A stretch of 64,000 nucleotides of DNA from Sulfurospirillaceae bacterium (GTDB taxonomy: Bacteria > Campylobacterota > Campylobacteria > Campylobacterales > Sulfurospirillaceae): assembly GCA_028684065.1 (NCBI GenBank), contig JAQUGO010000006.1, forward strand, positions 62,001 to 126,000, written 5' to 3'. This document shows, piece after piece, positions 17,070 through 47,664 of this stretch. A program made the translations under genes and the position numbers. Every line of letters starts with the position of its first letter. The first letter of the stretch is position 1. Below the pieces are notes generated by a model that was given only the letters and a program-made list of their open reading frames with translations, did not search any database and was not told the DNA's origin.

Positions 17070-17750
17070 ATTAGTCCCGTTGATTTTACTGCAATTATTA
17101 GTGTTGCGCTACTTGGTAGTGTTGGGCATTGTATAGGGATGTGTGGAGGCTTTGTCATGGCATATAGTAGTGCAAAGATAGATGCATCAACGTCAAATAT
17201 TCGTCAACTGTTGAGTCATATAACTTATAATATTGGCCGTGTGAGTGCTTATATTTTTCTGGGTATACTTTTTGGTAGTCTTGGTAGTATATTCTCTTTT
17301 TCTTCACAATCCCGTGGATATTTTTATTTTTTGATTGGTCTTATGATGATTTTAATGGGATTATCAATGTGGGGTAAACTCAAATTTTTAACCTCTCTTG
17401 AATCTTCTATCGCGTTTAACAGTACCATTAAAAAACTTTTTTCTTTTTTGATTCATTCAAAATCTTTTTGGAGTTTTTACGGACTAGGGATACTAAATGG
17501 TTTTTTACCATGTGGACTTGTGTATTTTTTCTTAGCCTCTGCTGCTATTACGGGATCTTGGTTTTGGGGTGGAGTTACGATGGCTATTTTTGGCATTTCC
17601 ACTATGCCCTCTTTAATAGGTATTGGTTTTATTATTGGTTTTTTAAAAAGTAGTGGCTTTCGTGAAATTATGATTAAATTAGCTTCTTTCGTTATTATAG
17701 GCTATGGGCTTTATATGGCATATTTAGGTTACTGTGCAGTAATAGCATGA
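17070..17750 (+). CDS. SafE/TauE-type (UreH-like) membrane protein with probable ATT start
   Basis: Integral membrane protein of about 226 residues with around six hydrophobic segments. The first ATG in frame, at 17139, would cut through TM1 and lose the conserved GHCIGMCGG motif. The frame is closed by TGA at 17055 and contains no ATG, GTG or TTG between there and 17139. ATT at 17070 lies 7 bases after a perfect AAGGAG (17057-17062) and yields SPVDFTAIISVALLGSVGHC, a complete TM1. Members of this family occur with cytochrome oxidase genes and may serve metal supply or maturation. It ends coupled to the kinase gene (ATGA). Confidence 0.8.
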   Translation: MSPVDFTAIISVALLGSVGHCIGMCGGFVMAYSSAKIDASTSNIRQLLSHITYNIGRVSAYIFLGILFGSLGSIFSFSSQSRGYFYFLIGLMMILMGLSMWGKLKFLTSLESSIAFNSTIKKLFSFLIHSKSFWSFYGLGILNGFLPCGLVYFFLASAAITGSWFWGGVTMAIFGISTMPSLIGIGFIIGFLKSSGFREIMIKLASFVIIGYGLYMAYLGYCAVIA

Positions 17751-18988
17751 AATTAGAACAGTATCAATCTGCCATTGAAAATAGTAATATTATTTCAAAA
17801 ACAAATATTGATGGTATTATCACATTTGTTAATGACGAATTTTGTAATATTTCTGGCTACACTAAAGAAGAATTAATCGGGCAAAACCATAATATTGTCA
17901 GACATCCAGATGTATCTACTTCCGTATTTAGACAGATGTGGAATGCTATCTTGAATAAAGAAACCTATAAAGCTACGGTTAAAAATCGTGCGAAAGATGG
18001 TAGTACATTCTATGTTAATACAACAGTTTTCCCTATATTAGGTGAAAATGGAGAGATTGAAGAGTTTATTGCTATACGGTATGATGTGACAGAGAGTATT
18101 CGTTTGAATGAAGCACTCTTGCAAAAAGATCAAGAATTAGAGCAACTCAATACAACACTTGAGCAAAGAGTTGACGAGCAAACTAAAGAACTTTTAGCAT
18201 TAAACCAGACACTTGAAGAGCGTATCCAGCTAGAGGTTGAAAAAAATAGAGAAAAAGATCGTTTTCTCTTTCAACAGTCTCGTTTAGCTTCCATGGGTGA
18301 AATGATAGCCAATATTGCACATCAATGGAGACAACCTCTTTCAGAACTTAATATTACACTTTATAAAATGAATAAGCTCCACTATAAAGATAAAAATAAG
18401 CAAGATGTTTTATTTGAAGATAGCTATAGTCATGCTAAAAAAATTATCGCTAAAATGTCAGAAACGATTGAAGATTTTAGAAACTTTTTTAACCCTAACC
18501 GTGAAAGTGAAGAGTTTTTACTAAGTCATGTTGCACAAGAGGCTGTTGACATCATGCATGGTACATTAGAACATAATGAGATTAAAGTTACGATAGAGAT
18601 AAAAGAGGATATGCTTATTAAGGGATATTTCAATGAATTTTCCCAAGTTCTTATTAATTTAATGAATAATTCTATTGATGCATTTTGTCAGAAAAAAATA
18701 AAAAATAGATTAATTTATGTCGAAATTGACACATCTGGCTTGGGAGATGCTATAATTAAAGTCTCAGATAATGCAGGTGGAATTGATCAAAATATTATTA
18801 ATAAAATATTTGAACCTTATTTTAGCACAAAGCACGCAAGTGTAGGAACAGGGCTTGGATTATATATGAGTGAAATGATTGTAAAAAACAGCATGATGGG
18901 AACACTTTCTGTCAAAAATAATGATGATGGCGTTTGTTTTACCATTATAATACCACGAAGTCATAATGAGGGGAAAGAGAATGAGTGA
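17747..18988 (+). CDS. Cytoplasmic PAS-domain histidine kinase (Aer-type PAS)
   Basis: Sensor kinase of 413 residues without a membrane segment. The PAS domain (about residues 10-125) contains GYTKEELIGQNHNIVRHPD, then FRQMW and VKNRAKDG. This matches the FAD-binding PAS of the aerotaxis receptor Aer, so redox sensing is likely. A coiled coil (about 125-170) links to a HisKA box, ASMGEMIANIAHQWRQPL, with phospho-acceptor H192. The HATPase has NLMNNSIDAF, DNAGGI and GTGLGLYMSEMI. It is coupled to the SafE-type gene and overlaps the regulator gene. Likely target: the cbb3 operon downstream. Confidence 0.92.
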   Translation: MKLEQYQSAIENSNIISKTNIDGIITFVNDEFCNISGYTKEELIGQNHNIVRHPDVSTSVFRQMWNAILNKETYKATVKNRAKDGSTFYVNTTVFPILGENGEIEEFIAIRYDVTESIRLNEALLQKDQELEQLNTTLEQRVDEQTKELLALNQTLEERIQLEVEKNREKDRFLFQQSRLASMGEMIANIAHQWRQPLSELNITLYKMNKLHYKDKNKQDVLFEDSYSHAKKIIAKMSETIEDFRNFFNPNRESEEFLLSHVAQEAVDIMHGTLEHNEIKVTIEIKEDMLIKGYFNEFSQVLINLMNNSIDAFCQKKIKNRLIYVEIDTSGLGDAIIKVSDNAGGIDQNIINKIFEPYFSTKHASVGTGLGLYMSEMIVKNSMMGTLSVKNNDDGVCFTIIIPRSHNEGKENE

Positions 18989-19661
18989 ATTAGCTAAACT
19001 GACAGTTCTGTTCGTAGAAGATGAACAGGATTTACGCAATGCACTAGAAAGCGCTATTGGGGATGAGTTTGGTAAGTTCATTGTAGCGCGTGACGGTGAC
19101 GATGGACTCAAAAAATTTAAAAAGTATAAACCCGATATTGTCATCACTGATATTATGATGCCAATAATAGATGGACTTGAAATGGCTAAAGAAATCAAGC
19201 ATATTTCTAAACAAACACCCATTATCATACTTAGTGCCTTTAGCGAAAAAGATAGGCTACTAAAAGCTATTGATGTAGGTATTGATAAGTACCTAATTAA
19301 ACCGATAGACCCAGATGAATTATTAATGACACTTCGTCTTCTTGCAAAAGAGCTTTTTGAGCAAAATGATGTTATCGATTTAGGGCACGCGTATCAATTT
19401 GATAAAAATAGACGTGTTTTGATAAAAGCAGGTAAAACAATCTTTCTTACAAAAAAAGAGTTACTTTTTATCTCTATTTTGGTTAAGAACTTAGGTGTAT
19501 TCGTTTTACATGAAGAGATTAAAAAATATGTCTGGACAAATAAAAATGTAACAGATTCAGCAATTAGGACATTTATTAAACGCGTGAGAGAAAAAACCGA
19601 TAAAGAGTTTATTAAAAATATTCCTGGACTTGGTTATAAAATTAAAACAGAAGACGAATAA
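18981..19661 (+). CDS. OmpR/PhoB-type response regulator
   Basis: Receiver plus winged-helix DNA-binding protein, about 226 residues. FVEDEQDLRNAL carries the acidic pocket, D57 in IVITDIMMP is the phosphorylation site, and LIKPIDPDELL carries the conserved lysine. The C-terminal domain (LTKKELLFISILVKN, then SAIRTFIKRVREKTD, then IPGLGYKI) is the OmpR-type effector. ATG at 18966 is also in frame, but AGGGGA lies at the proper distance only from 18981. The gene overlaps the kinase by 8 bases. It lies directly before ccoN and probably binds the ccoN promoter. Confidence 0.93.
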   Translation: MSELAKLTVLFVEDEQDLRNALESAIGDEFGKFIVARDGDDGLKKFKKYKPDIVITDIMMPIIDGLEMAKEIKHISKQTPIIILSAFSEKDRLLKAIDVGIDKYLIKPIDPDELLMTLRLLAKELFEQNDVIDLGHAYQFDKNRRVLIKAGKTIFLTKKELLFISILVKNLGVFVLHEEIKKYVWTNKNVTDSAIRTFIKRVREKTDKEFIKNIPGLGYKIKTEDE

Positions 19662-19843: not shown

Positions 19844-21310
19844 ATGCAGGAAAAAAATGCATTGAACTATGACTATTCTGTAGCCAAATGTTTCACATAC
19901 GCAACGATTCTATTTGGAATTATTGGTATGTTGATAGGTGTGGTAATCGCCTATCAGATGGCTTTCCCTCAGTTGAATTACTTAGCTGGTGAGTACGGTA
20001 CTTACAGTCGTTTAAGACCGCTACACACTTCTGGTGTAATTTTTGGATTTTTGCTAAGTGGGATCTTTGCCACGTGGTACTATGTTGGGCAACGAGTACT
20101 CAAGGTTTCCATGGCAGAATCAAAGTTTTTAATGGTGGTTGGTAAACTCCACTTTTGGATCTACATGATAACCATCTTAACAGCGGTTGTTACATTGTTT
20201 ATGGGTATTAGTACGTCTAAAGAGTATGCCGAACTCGAATGGCCTTTGGATATCGCAGTTGTTGTATTGTGGGTATTATGGGGTATCAGTATTTTTGGGC
20301 TTGTCGGAATTAGACGCGAAAAAACACTTTATATTTCTATGTGGTATTACATTGCAACCTTTTTAGGTGTTGCTATGCTTTACCTCTTTAATAATATGGA
20401 AGTTCCAACGTATTTTGTTTCTGGATATGGTAAATGGTACCATTCTGTTTCAATGTATGCTGGTACAAATGATGCTATGGTTCAATGGTGGTACGGGCAT
20501 AATGCGGTTGCTTTTGTCTTTACCGTGCCAATTATTGCAATGATATATTACTTTTTACCAAAAGAATCTGGTCAGCCAGTGTTCTCTTATAAATTATCAC
20601 TTCTTTCTTTTTGGGGATTGATGTTTGTTTACCTTTGGGCAGGTGGACATCACTTGTTGTTTTCAACGGTTCCTGATTGGGTTCAAACAATGGGATCAAT
20701 CTTCTCTGTTATTTTGATTCTGCCATCTTGGGGTAGTGCCATTAATATGCTTTTAACGATGAAAGGACAATGGGGTCAGCTTAAAGAAAATCCATTAGTC
20801 AAATTTATGGTTTTAGCATCAACATTCTATATGCTTAGTACCCTTGAAGGTCCAATTCAAGCAATTAAATCAGTTAATGCACTTGCGCACTTTACAGATT
20901 GGATTCCAGGTCACGTACATGATGGTACTTTGGGTTGGGTTGGCTTTATGACGATGGCCGCACTTTTCCATATGGCTCCACGCATGTATAAGCGTGAACT
21001 TTACAGTAAAAAATTAATGGAATCACAATTCTGGGTACAAACAACAGGTATTGTGATGTATTTTTCAAGTATGTGGATTGCTGGAATTACACAAGGTATG
21101 ATGTGGAGAGCAACAGACCAATACGGGAACTTGGCATATTCATTTATTGATACGGTAACAGTTCTTATTCCTTACTATGCACTCCGTGCAACGGGAGGAC
21201 TACTATATCTTGTAGGTTTCTTTATGTTTACCTATAATATGTACAAAACGATGACTGCAAGTAAAGCAATTGCGAGCGAGCCTCAAAATGCTTCACCTAT
21301 GGCAGCTTAA
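19844..21310 (+). CDS. ccoN: cbb3-type cytochrome c oxidase subunit I
   Basis: Catalytic haem-copper subunit of the high-affinity terminal oxidase, inner membrane, about 12 membrane segments, 488 residues. Conserved histidines are visible in RLRPLHTSGVIFGF (low-spin haem), WWYGHNAVAF (CuB), WAGGHHLLFSTVPDW (CuB pair) and HVHDGTLGWVGFM (haem ligands). A TTG at 19841 precedes the ATG, but AGGAGG lies at the right distance for 19844. First gene of ccoNOQP, a microaerobic respiratory operon. Confidence 0.98.
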   Translation: MQEKNALNYDYSVAKCFTYATILFGIIGMLIGVVIAYQMAFPQLNYLAGEYGTYSRLRPLHTSGVIFGFLLSGIFATWYYVGQRVLKVSMAESKFLMVVGKLHFWIYMITILTAVVTLFMGISTSKEYAELEWPLDIAVVVLWVLWGISIFGLVGIRREKTLYISMWYYIATFLGVAMLYLFNNMEVPTYFVSGYGKWYHSVSMYAGTNDAMVQWWYGHNAVAFVFTVPIIAMIYYFLPKESGQPVFSYKLSLLSFWGLMFVYLWAGGHHLLFSTVPDWVQTMGSIFSVILILPSWGSAINMLLTMKGQWGQLKENPLVKFMVLASTFYMLSTLEGPIQAIKSVNALAHFTDWIPGHVHDGTLGWVGFMTMAALFHMAPRMYKRELYSKKLMESQFWVQTTGIVMYFSSMWIAGITQGMMWRATDQYGNLAYSFIDTVTVLIPYYALRATGGLLYLVGFFMFTYNMYKTMTASKAIASEPQNASPMAA

Positions 21311-21325
21311 AAGGAGGGCAGGATT

Positions 21326-21991
21326 ATGTTTCATTGGCTAGAGAGAAATCCATTCTTTTTTGCAGTAGGTGTATTTTTAGTAGTTGCTTATGCAGGCGTT
21401 GTTACCATTCTTCCAGATTTTATGGAAAGTGCACGTCCTGTTGTCGGGACAAAACCTTATAGTGTACTTGAATTAGCAGGTCGTCAGATTTACATTAAAG
21501 ATAGCTGTAATGCATGTCATTCACAATTAGTACGTCCCTTTAAGTCTGAAACAGATAGATATGGTATGTATTCTTTAAGTGGGGAATATGCTTATGATAG
21601 ACCATTTCTATGGGGTTCAAAAAGAACGGGTCCAGATTTAATGAGAGTAGGAAATTATCGAACAACGGATTGGCATGAATATCATATGCTAAATCCAAAA
21701 AGTGTCGTCCCGGGCTCTATTATGCCAGCGTATAAGCATATGTTTAAAAATAATGCAGACATTGACACAGCTTATGCTGAAGCATATACTGTTAAAACAG
21801 TCTTCAATGTTCCTTACGATAAACCAGATATGCCAAAACTTGGTACTTTTGACGAGGCTAAAAAAGATGCTTTTGAAGCTGCAGCCGTGATTGTTGCTGA
21901 TATGAAAAGTACAGAAGTCAAAGAGGCATTTAAACGAGGTGAGATTAAAGAGATTGTAGCTCTTGTCGCCTATTTAAATAGCTTAAAGTAA
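21326..21991 (+). CDS. ccoO: cbb3-type cytochrome c oxidase subunit II (monohaem cytochrome c)
   Basis: Membrane-anchored monohaem cytochrome c of 221 residues that passes electrons from CcoP to CcoN. N-terminal anchor FFFAVGVFLVVAYAGVVTILP is followed by the single haem site CNACH (DSCNACHSQLVRPF). Met ligand candidates follow in SIMPAYKHMF. AGGAGG-like GGAGGG precedes the ATG. It lies 15 bases after ccoN. Length is typical for the subunit. Confidence 0.97.
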   Translation: MFHWLERNPFFFAVGVFLVVAYAGVVTILPDFMESARPVVGTKPYSVLELAGRQIYIKDSCNACHSQLVRPFKSETDRYGMYSLSGEYAYDRPFLWGSKRTGPDLMRVGNYRTTDWHEYHMLNPKSVVPGSIMPAYKHMFKNNADIDTAYAEAYTVKTVFNVPYDKPDMPKLGTFDEAKKDAFEAAAVIVADMKSTEVKEAFKRGEIKEIVALVAYLNSLK

Positions 21992-22001
21992 GGTGTTATC
22001 G

Positions 22002-22217
22002 GTGAATATGGAAACAATTAGAGAGCTTCAAGCGTATGGTTATATATTTTTAACAGTTTTTTTAGCAATCGGTTTATATGCATATATTTACCATCTTTAT
22101 CGTGCTGAAAAGAAGGGGACAAGAAATTATGAGAAGTATGCAGATATTGCCTTGCATGACAATATTGATGATGCTCCTGTTGAAGCAATATCACCACTAA
22201 ACAAAGAGAAAGAATAA
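22002..22217 (+). CDS. ccoQ: cbb3-type cytochrome c oxidase subunit CcoQ
   Basis: Small single-span subunit that stabilises the cbb3 complex. Starting at GTG 22002 it has 71 residues. AAGG of TAAGGTG lies 8 bases before this GTG, while ATG 22008 is too far from it. The membrane segment AYGYIFLTVFLAIGLYAYIYHLY is followed by a charged cytoplasmic tail RAEKKGTRNYEKYADIAL. Position between ccoO and ccoP supports the call. Confidence 0.88.
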   Translation: MNMETIRELQAYGYIFLTVFLAIGLYAYIYHLYRAEKKGTRNYEKYADIALHDNIDDAPVEAISPLNKEKE

Positions 22218-22230
22218 AGAGGAGCAATAT

Positions 22231-23079
22231 ATGAATTGGCTGAATGACAATGTAAACGTTTTGGCATTGATGGGCGCAGCAGCTATACTAATTCTTACTA
22301 TTTTTGTTGTCGGTAAATATATGAGACAAATGCAAAATGACAAAAGTAGTGGAGAGTTAACCAAAGATAACTGGGATGGAATAGGGGAATATAAAAATCC
22401 TTTACCTATTGGCTGGGCACTTTCATTTCTAGGAACAATAATTTGGGGATTGTGGTATTTCCTTGTGGGCTACCCTTTAAATTCATACTCTCAAATTGGT
22501 GAATATAATGAGGAAGTCAAAAGTTATAATACGCACTTTGAGAGCAAATTTTCAAATCCAGATAAAACAACACTTATGGGCATGGGTGAAGGCGTTTTCT
22601 TAGTACAATGTGCGCCGTGTCATGGTGTAACGGGCGATGGTATGAATGGCAAAGCTTTAAACCTTTCTAAATGGGGAAATGAAGACGCTGTCGTTGCTAC
22701 TATCTTAAATGGTGCAAAAGGTTCAGACTATCCATTAGGAGAAATGCCAGCAGGCTTACTTGATGCTGAGAGTGCAAAGGCAGTTGCAGCATTTATGTTT
22801 AAAGAAATTTCTGAGGTTAAAAATACAAAGCATCCTGAGCTAATCGAATCAGGGCGTGCACTTTGGGCAACATGTGCAGCATGCCATGGTGATGATGGCA
22901 AGGGTATGGCTGGAAGTTCTCCAGATCTTAGCACTTATGGCGCATCAAAATTTGTTGTTAATGTCCTTGGTATGGGTAAAAAAGGTATGATTGGAAATAT
23001 GCCTAAGTTTAATGATGGGCGTTTAACAAATGTACAAAAACTGGCTGTTGGCACCTATGTCAACTCTTTATCTAAATAA
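22231..23079 (+). CDS. ccoP: cbb3-type cytochrome c oxidase subunit III (dihaem cytochrome c)
   Basis: Dihaem cytochrome c of 282 residues that accepts electrons from soluble cytochrome c. Two N-terminal hydrophobic stretches (LALMGAAAILILTIFVVGKY and LSFLGTIIWGLWYFLVGY) anchor it. The haem sites are CAPCH beginning at C127 and CAACH beginning at C215. A GDGMNGKALNLS / GDDGKGMAGSSPDLS pair shows that the two haem domains are repeats of each other. GAGGAG precedes the ATG by 7 bases. Confidence 0.97.
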   Translation: MNWLNDNVNVLALMGAAAILILTIFVVGKYMRQMQNDKSSGELTKDNWDGIGEYKNPLPIGWALSFLGTIIWGLWYFLVGYPLNSYSQIGEYNEEVKSYNTHFESKFSNPDKTTLMGMGEGVFLVQCAPCHGVTGDGMNGKALNLSKWGNEDAVVATILNGAKGSDYPLGEMPAGLLDAESAKAVAAFMFKEISEVKNTKHPELIESGRALWATCAACHGDDGKGMAGSSPDLSTYGASKFVVNVLGMGKKGMIGNMPKFNDGRLTNVQKLAVGTYVNSLSK

Positions 23080-23087
23080 GGATTAAC

Positions 23088-23300
23088 ATGGAAAATACAA
23101 ACAGAAGTGTATTTGGACTTCATGGTGTAACAGGTATGCTTATTGCTACGGTTCTTTTATTGTCTATTCTTGTTGGTTTGACTATTCTTGGTATTGGTGC
23201 ACAACGTTCAGTTGCTGATAAGCCTTATAAGATTACAGATCCACAAGCATTGAAAATGAGAGATACTGCTAATGCAAATCAAAAAGCTTTAGCGAAGTAA
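23088..23300 (+). CDS. DUF4006 family membrane protein
   Basis: A 70-residue single-span protein (VTGMLIATVLLLSILVGLTILGI) followed by a short charged tail. I recognise it as the DUF4006 family, seen downstream of ccoP in Campylobacterota and without known function. It starts 8 bases after ccoP behind AAGGATTA. Size and context suggest a small accessory subunit or assembly factor of the cbb3 oxidase. Confidence 0.85.
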   Translation: MENTNRSVFGLHGVTGMLIATVLLLSILVGLTILGIGAQRSVADKPYKITDPQALKMRDTANANQKALAK

Positions 23301-23312
23301 GGGGCTGATATT

Positions 23313-23402
23313 ATGGAAAAAATCATTGCGATTGGTTTAGTAATCATCGGGTTAGTAAGTGCATGGGCTGTTTTGACAGCAAATCACTTGTTTATAGGCT
23401 AA
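23313..23402 (+). CDS. 29-residue membrane peptide in the cbb3 operon
   Basis: Short reading frame: ATG at 23313, TAA at 23400-23402. AAGGGG lies 9 bases before the ATG. The peptide is almost only a membrane helix: IIAIGLVIIGLVSAWAVLTA, with MEK before it and NHLFIG after it. The stop overlaps the next ATG (TAATG), so translation is coupled. Spacing, ribosome site and coupling argue for a real gene. It could be a CcoM-like mini-subunit of the oxidase (CcoM is a short single-span subunit known in Pseudomonas stutzeri) or a leader peptide for the structure downstream. No homology can be claimed by eye. Confidence 0.7.
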   Translation: MEKIIAIGLVIIGLVSAWAVLTANHLFIG

Positions 23403-24010
23403 TGAAAAATCATTTATCTATAAAGGCAAAAGAGCTTATGCTCTTTTGCCTTTTTTTAATACTTCCTATACATATTTTCGCACAAGAATTTGTTATTAAT
23501 GAAAATGTAATAGAAGCGCGCACGGCTCAAAAAATAGAAGAAATGGGACAAGAATTATTTTCTAAAAGCGGTGTTAAAGTCTATCTTGTTGCCATGAAAA
23601 ATGGTAATGGAAAAAACATTATTGATTTTGAAAAAGAATTTTCTCAAACACTGCAAGCTCCTTATGCCATATTAACACTTTTTTTAGAAGACCAAAAAGT
23701 AGATATTTACCATTCTGAAGGTCTTGAAAAAGAGTTTGACAAAGAAGCAATGCTTTCACCTCTTCCTTGGAATGGGACTATTATCCCTCTTTTGACAGGC
23801 AAAAAGAAAGATGTGAGCGTCAGTGCAGCACTCTTAAATGGTTATGCTGATATGGTTGAGCAAATCGCTTCTACGCGCAAGATAGTGCTTGAAAGTGCTA
23901 TAGGTAGTTCCAATAAGACAACGCTGTTAGTTATAAAAATAGGTGTTTATGGTTTTGTAGCAGTTCTCTTATTATTAGTATTGGTTAAAAGGATTAAAAG
24001 ACGTGACTAA
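23402..24010 (+). CDS. Secreted/membrane-anchored protein of unknown function (TPM-like)
   Basis: About 202 residues. The frame is open from 23363, but ATG at 23402 overlaps the preceding stop and gives a good signal peptide: a charged start (MKNHLSIKAKE), a hydrophobic core, then FAQEF. The periplasmic domain has short alternating strand and helix segments (VKVYLVAMKNG, PYAILTLFLEDQKVDIYHS) resembling, weakly, the TPM (DUF477) fold. A C-terminal membrane helix (LVIKIGVYGFVAVLLLLVLV) ends in KRIKRRD. A perfect terminator-like hairpin occupies codons 7-19. It overlaps the FixH-like gene by 8 bases. Confidence 0.75.
   Translation: MKNHLSIKAKELMLFCLFLILPIHIFAQEFVINENVIEARTAQKIEEMGQELFSKSGVKVYLVAMKNGNGKNIIDFEKEFSQTLQAPYAILTLFLEDQKVDIYHSEGLEKEFDKEAMLSPLPWNGTIIPLLTGKKKDVSVSAALLNGYADMVEQIASTRKIVLESAIGSSNKTTLLVIKIGVYGFVAVLLLLVLVKRIKRRD
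23422..23457 (+). terminator. Canonical intrinsic terminator inside the 5' end of a gene
   Basis: AAAGGCAAAAGAGC (23422-23435) and GCTCTTTTGCCTTT (23440-23453) form a perfect 14-bp stem with a TTAT loop, ending in seven consecutive T (23451-23457). It follows the 29-codon frame by 20 bases and lies within the signal-peptide codons of the next gene. Confidence 0.85.
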
Positions 24011-24500
24011 AATAAAGAAAGAGCGCAACTATTGGCCTCATGCTATTATAGGAATGATTTTATCAGTCGTTGTTGCTGGTGGTTTTACGATTAGGCTTGC
24101 AATTAAAAATCCTGTTGAAATGGATACTTACTATATGGAGAAATACCAAAAAGTAGATCAAAATATCAATGAAATTTTAGCATTACAGGCCAAATTTGAT
24201 GCAAAATTTGATATAAAATATTCGACTGAAAATTTTGTTTTAGGCAAGAATAGTATTGTGATTAAAGTGCTTGATAAAAATGGGCAAGCGATTACGGATG
24301 CCTCTGTTACTCTCTTACTTAGTCGCCCAGAAACCAATCAGAATAATCTTGAAATGCAACCCTCAAAAGCAGCTAATGGAAACTATACATTTGATGATAT
24401 TACGATAGAAAAACCTGGTCGCTGGCAGATATTAACAAAAATTATTGTAGGTGAATTTCAAGGTTATCAAAAATACGAAGTCTACGCAGCAAAACAATAG
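24003..24500 (+). CDS. FixH family protein
   Basis: Membrane-anchored periplasmic protein of 165 residues. A short basic cytoplasmic start (MTKIKKERNYWPH) leads into one membrane helix (AIIGMILSVVVAGGFTIRLAI). A periplasmic domain with VIKVLDKNGQAITDASVTLL and a C-terminal PGRWQILTKIIVG strand pair is typical of FixH/CcoH. FixH/CcoH proteins are needed for cbb3 oxidase assembly in other bacteria. The start is GTG overlapping the previous gene by 8 bases. A bidirectional hairpin follows its stop. Confidence 0.85.
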   Translation: MTKIKKERNYWPHAIIGMILSVVVAGGFTIRLAIKNPVEMDTYYMEKYQKVDQNINEILALQAKFDAKFDIKYSTENFVLGKNSIVIKVLDKNGQAITDASVTLLLSRPETNQNNLEMQPSKAANGNYTFDDITIEKPGRWQILTKIIVGEFQGYQKYEVYAAKQ

Positions 24501-47582: not shown

Positions 47583-47599
47583 CAAGACGTTATATATTA

Positions 47600-47638
47600 A
47601 AAAAGGGTTAGGCAAGTCAATCTTGCCTAACCCTTTTT
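47600..47638. terminator. Strong terminator after nifJ
   Basis: A perfect 17-bp stem (47600-47616 with 47622-47638), five-base loop, core GGGTTAGGCAAG, A-rich ascending and T-rich descending arms. It can act in both directions and also serves the minus-strand gene ending at 47665. Confidence 0.92.
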
Positions 47639-47664
47639 CTGTAGTTTTAAAATAGTCGTTGAAA

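Follow-up and report, generated by a model that had tools for sequence, protein, structure and literature searches.

An RNA hairpin conserved behind ccoY in Campylobacterales as a candidate 3' boundary element of the cbb3 oxidase message

Leaky intrinsic terminators are found inside operons, for example in E. coli rpsU-dnaG and rplL-rpoB, where a stem and a U-run are placed between genes of differing demand. The hairpins linked to differential decay of operon messages in E. coli, Salmonella and Enterobacter are stable boundary stems that often lie in the downstream open reading frame and are conserved among relatives; they lack a U-tract and are located, on average, 107 nt into the downstream frame (PMC5927463). 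For the Clostridium cip-cel operon, orthologous processing/stabilisation stem-loops have been described between genes whose products form one complex; they are believed to set the subunit ratios, lie in intergenic DNA and are linked to mapped processing sites (PMC4423207). In E. coli, premature RNA 3' ends can form within coding sequence (PMC7815308). The hairpin described here, at the ccoY-ccoZ boundary of the cbb3 oxidase operon, resembles each of these systems in part. It differs from the rpsU-dnaG and rplL-rpoB terminators in being located mostly in signal-peptide codons, with a U-tail that is not universal, and from the differential-decay hairpins in its position 12-26 nt past the upstream stop, its frequent U-tail and its persistence across an order with full sequence turnover, even outside coding DNA. 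Unlike the cip-cel stem-loops and the ORF-internal 3' ends, it is known from sequence alone; in contrast to the latter, it follows an upstream gene.

The equivalent gene row of C. jejuni comprises ccoNOQP, ccoX (cj1486c), ccoY (cj1485c, 33 residues), ccoZ (cj1484c) and ccoH (cj1483c). For oxidase activity in this species, CcoX and CcoH are essential and CcoY and CcoZ important, and CcoZ and CcoH co-migrate with the oxidase and Qcr proteins (PMC8267372). No literature on transcript ends or operon structure at the ccoY-ccoZ locus was found, and the papers found contain no description of how the ratio of CcoX, CcoY, CcoZ and CcoH is controlled.

The window, a stretch of 64,000 nt from a Sulfurospirillaceae bacterium, contains the genes in the order ccoN, ccoO, ccoQ, ccoP, DUF4006, a 29-codon frame, TPM_phosphatase and FixH, as assigned by Pfam. 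The features are as follows.

19844-23079, + strand: ccoN, ccoO, ccoQ and ccoP, oxidase subunits, upstream of the hairpin (Pfam)
23088-23300, + strand: ccoX (DUF4006), upstream of the hairpin (Pfam)
23313-23402, + strand: ccoY, 29 codons, one transmembrane helix (name from PMC8267372); the stem begins 19 nt past its stop
23402-24010, + strand: ccoZ (TPM_phosphatase domain, Pfam), which holds the hairpin
23422-23435, + strand: 5' arm of the hairpin, AAAGGCAAAAGAGC (folding and covariation)
23436-23439, + strand: hairpin loop, TTAT (sequence, folding)
23440-23453, + strand: 3' arm of the hairpin, GCTCTTTTGCCTTT (folding and covariation)
23451-23457, + strand: U-tail, seven T, the first three of them also part of the outer stem pairs
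24003-24500, + strand: ccoH (FixH), downstream of the hairpin (Pfam)

Directly 5' of ccoN and on the same strand (17747-19661), the translations indicate a PAS-type histidine kinase and a response regulator, which may control the operon.

By inspection, positions 23422-23453 of the window form a perfect 14-bp stem with a UUAU loop, followed by a run of seven U; hairpin and U-run together occupy codons 7-19 of ccoZ, whose ATG (23402) overlaps the ccoY TAA (23400-23402) by one A. The 71-nt hairpin region was predicted to fold at -25.9 kcal/mol (z -6.5), a value reached by none of 200 dinucleotide shuffles, and the 14-bp stem alone at -21.4 kcal/mol. Seven of the eight bases after the last G-C pair are T. 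Both the stable stem-loop and the U-tract of an intrinsic terminator are present, and a sequence-only reading of the window, which had described a canonical terminator inside the first codons of the gene that follows the cbb3 operon, with FixH downstream, was borne out on all of these points. When 383 kb of the source genome were scanned, the hairpin ranked third in stability among hairpins with a strong U-tail. Three other hairpins have similar stability, two of them the opposite strands of a single site; these three and the next in rank lie 13-80 nt after stop codons, in keeping with post-stop terminators, and the ccoZ hairpin is the sole one at a gene 5' end among these most stable hairpins. 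Elsewhere in the window, positions 47599-47639 form a very strong stem that has a U-tail on each strand, apparently a shared terminator of convergent genes. Rfam gave no family above its gathering score for the hairpin; the only hit, VrrA, scored 27.3 bits, below the cut-off of 50 (E 0.17), and was regarded as a chance match. An internal start of ccoZ at ATG 23438, in the loop and stem, was rejected, as relatives do not have this ATG but retain the TAATG start and the in-frame spacing.

ccoZ was present in 23 of the 24 genomes of the genus, and further ccoZ loci were gathered from other families of Campylobacterales. Families were labelled f1-f23, with lineage names partly assigned by similarity; start codons and ccoY calls were automatic, and many loci came from metagenome-assembled genomes. 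For each locus, the hairpin was taken as the local stem of lowest energy. A hairpin at the same place was found in Sulfurospirillum, other Sulfurospirillaceae, Campylobacter, Arcobacter-like, Sulfurimonas-like, Sulfurovum-like and Nitratiruptor-like lineages and at several Helicobacter loci. Neither the stem sequences nor the encoded peptides are related between these lineages: in close relatives of C. jejuni, for instance, the stem reads AAGATGGC-TTTTTA-GCCATCTT and lies within the first 15 codons of cj1484c. Displaced or odd cases comprised a stem 67 nt past ccoY (L034) and a long-loop structure in C. concisus, and at some Helicobacter loci the stem was weak or absent. The hairpin is thus kept at the same place in nearly all Campylobacterales lineages sampled, with a sequence that is wholly different between lineages.

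Signal peptides place purine-rich Lys/Arg codons before pyrimidine-rich Leu/Phe codons, so a stem of this kind could arise by accidental pairing as a by-product of coding. A 26-codon region of 112 distinct ccoZ loci was compared with synonymous recodings that used the own codon usage of each gene. The native region folded better than its recodings (mean z -2.75; p<0.05 in 80 loci and p<0.01 in 58). The p-values of related loci are not independent and these counts are descriptive, but the start of ccoH, which has the same relatedness, gave a mean z of -0.02 in 87 of the same loci, and signal-peptide-like genes of the source genome gave -0.19 (n=49). The synonymous test was weak in family f17, where the peptide is itself conserved, as a coding by-product would predict. 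Covariation was assessed in 17 distinct Sulfurospirillum sequences, codon-aligned without gaps. Stem positions could pair in 94% of cells, compared with 46-66% when one arm was slid, and both sides had changed in 8 of 14 pairs, a number as high as this being obtained in 0 of 500 shuffles. Typically, a silent change of a Lys codon (AAG/AAA) is matched by a Leu/Phe replacement (CTT/TTT) in the opposite arm. Given the recoding result, the controls, the two-sided changes and the copies in noncoding DNA described below, accidental pairing was rejected, and its probability is considered negligible: the stem has been strongly selected in relatives and is neither chance nor a by-product of the signal peptide. 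The inner 11 pairs show G-U but never A-C exchanges, which suggests that the mRNA strand is the one that folds; a palindrome acting at the DNA level or an antisense RNA is less likely on the same grounds.

Folding excess was also noted at other sites. The last 26 codons of ccoX folded better than their recodings, more weakly (mean z -1.09 in 90 loci, 18 of them below -2), which may reflect a second structured site (e.g. L039, 1210-1236); it is absent in the window itself (23220-23300). The start of a SecY-like gene in the same genome (L140, 17820-17910) gave a z of -3.6 against its recodings, with the stem ACTGGCATATGTGCCAGT.

When the 1.6 kb surrounding the ccoY stop were scanned in 33 diverse loci, one main peak emerged, in the 60 nt past this stop (mean z -4.36; z below -2 in 97% of the loci). 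In most loci, the stem begins 12-26 nt past the ccoY stop and 12-24 nt past the ccoZ start, and the two genes overlap as TAATG or TGATG in many lineages. Because the ccoZ start adjoins, the distance to the ccoY stop alone cannot tell which gene the stem belongs to. In family f15 (L169, L172, L173, L174 and L058), however, ccoZ begins about 58-108 nt past ccoY, and the stem is located in the noncoding spacer, 4-12 nt past the ccoY stop and tens of nt before the ccoZ start. In family f18 (L162 and L163), the hairpin loop contains the ccoZ start codon itself, with a stem arm on either side, and the arms of the two loci differ by compensating changes (GCGG/CCGC, GCAG/CTGC). Thiovulum-like loci had no stem, and a search for ccoY upstream of their ccoZ found none. 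These three cases together place the element at the 3' end of the ccoNOQPXY segment: the stem is tied to the ccoY stop, and its coding position results from tight gene packing. Two TPM-domain matches in one 357-codon frame at L173/L184 (G054:C96 14675-15730) likely represent a tandem duplication or fusion of ccoZ.

The same positions bear on two explanations that involve ribosomes. In the first, put forward by the sequence-only reading, ribosomes moving from ccoY into ccoZ would melt the stem and let polymerase continue, while uncoupled transcripts would stop. The frequent overlap of the two genes and the location of the stem within the first codons suit such an attenuator, and the stem of the window is indeed translated, so a ribosome arriving from ccoY could melt it there. 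As a shared mechanism it is not supported: the stem is untranslated in f15 and surrounds the start codon in f18, the U-tail is missing in Sulfurimonas-like and several further lineages, and the 1.6-kb scan of local folding in 33 loci revealed no notable signal upstream of the stem that would indicate an alternative (antiterminator) fold. We consider this explanation very unlikely. In the second, the stem would meet the leading edge of an initiating ribosome and either hold terminating ribosomes near the ccoZ start or pace the synthesis of the signal peptide. Its spacing from the ccoZ start in most loci agrees with this, as does the start codon in the f18 loop, but the f15 stem is noncoding and tens of nt before the ccoZ start, yet close behind ccoY, which makes control of ccoZ translation very unlikely. 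The strong f18 stem itself, with the start codon in its loop, could hide the ccoZ start from ribosomes.

A strong U-tail (at least 6 T among the 8 bases after the last G-C pair) was found in 54 of 103 loci. The mean T count was 5.28 of 8, against 5.00 expected from synonymous recoding, and exceeded expectation in 73 of the 103 loci (Wilcoxon p 5e-5, uncorrected for relatedness). The excess was clearest in other Sulfurospirillaceae genera (6.07 against 5.12). Sulfurimonas-like loci have no U-tail (2.5 of 8 against 3.2 expected), nor does f17, and it is weak in several Sulfurospirillum. The stem is therefore the feature common to the order, the U-tail being the less conserved of the two, and the loci in which the tail is lacking or weak show that termination cannot account for the hairpin in all lineages.

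This pattern leaves room for a role without any termination, in which the hairpin would only shield the upstream message at its 3' end, once that end had been formed by cleavage or by Rho-dependent termination farther on (differential operon decay), the U-rich tail being a by-product of Leu/Phe codons. The stem is indeed kept where the U-tail is absent, and protective hairpins of E. coli that lack a U-tract often lie, conserved, inside the downstream frame (PMC5927463). The ccoY-ccoZ element shares with them a conserved, stable stem at a gene boundary that is encoded in the downstream frame; the lack of a U-tract is shared by f17 and others, not by the window. Against protection alone stand the strong U-tail of the window and of about half of the loci, slightly above synonymous expectation, and the noncoding stem of the f15 locus L173, which is followed by TTTTTTATT. 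We judge protection alone to be rather unlikely.

The reading we favour, at somewhat better than even confidence, is that the hairpin is a 3' boundary element of ccoNOQPXY, shaped in this genome as a leaky intrinsic terminator that would limit ccoZ-ccoH. The stem sits just beyond a ribosome that ends at the ccoY stop. Where the terminator form is present, as in the window and about half of the relatives, a share of the polymerases would stop at the U-run, with the rest continuing into ccoZ and ccoH, and the stable stem would also halt 3'-5' exonucleases, so that message for the oxidase subunits would exceed that for ccoZ/ccoH. A strong terminator at this place would need leakage or a second promoter, because CcoH is essential in C. 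jejuni (PMC8267372). Across the order, a 3' boundary appears the more likely function, by termination where a U-tail is present and by exonuclease arrest at the stem elsewhere. The hairpin thus probably marks where many oxidase messages end and so sets the amount of the helper genes made. The sequence-only reading had likewise proposed control of the ratio of oxidase subunits to assembly factors; the position between the subunit genes plus ccoX/ccoY and ccoZ/ccoH suits this, and the effect on ratios is predicted from that arrangement. For C. jejuni NCTC11168, Term-seq data of the wild type and of rnc, rny, pnp and rnr mutants are public (GEO GSE230837; PMC11187230).

In most lineages ccoZ overlaps ccoY or follows it directly, so that the hairpin is encoded within the signal-peptide codons of ccoZ, where it would dictate that part of the peptide. 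We give an even chance to the broader proposal that one RNA boundary has been held behind ccoY across most Campylobacterales families, despite full sequence replacement and moves between spacer, start codon and signal-peptide codons, that its structure dictates the CcoZ leader peptide, and that it sets the ratio of the oxidase to its assembly/supercomplex factors. In C. jejuni and other microaerophiles, the high-affinity oxidase is the cbb3 enzyme, which reaches full activity only with CcoX, CcoY, CcoZ and CcoH (PMC8267372). An order-wide structure at one gene boundary suggests that this boundary matters for the oxidase, and ccoZ would be a case in which a protein sequence, the signal peptide, is bent to serve an RNA structure.
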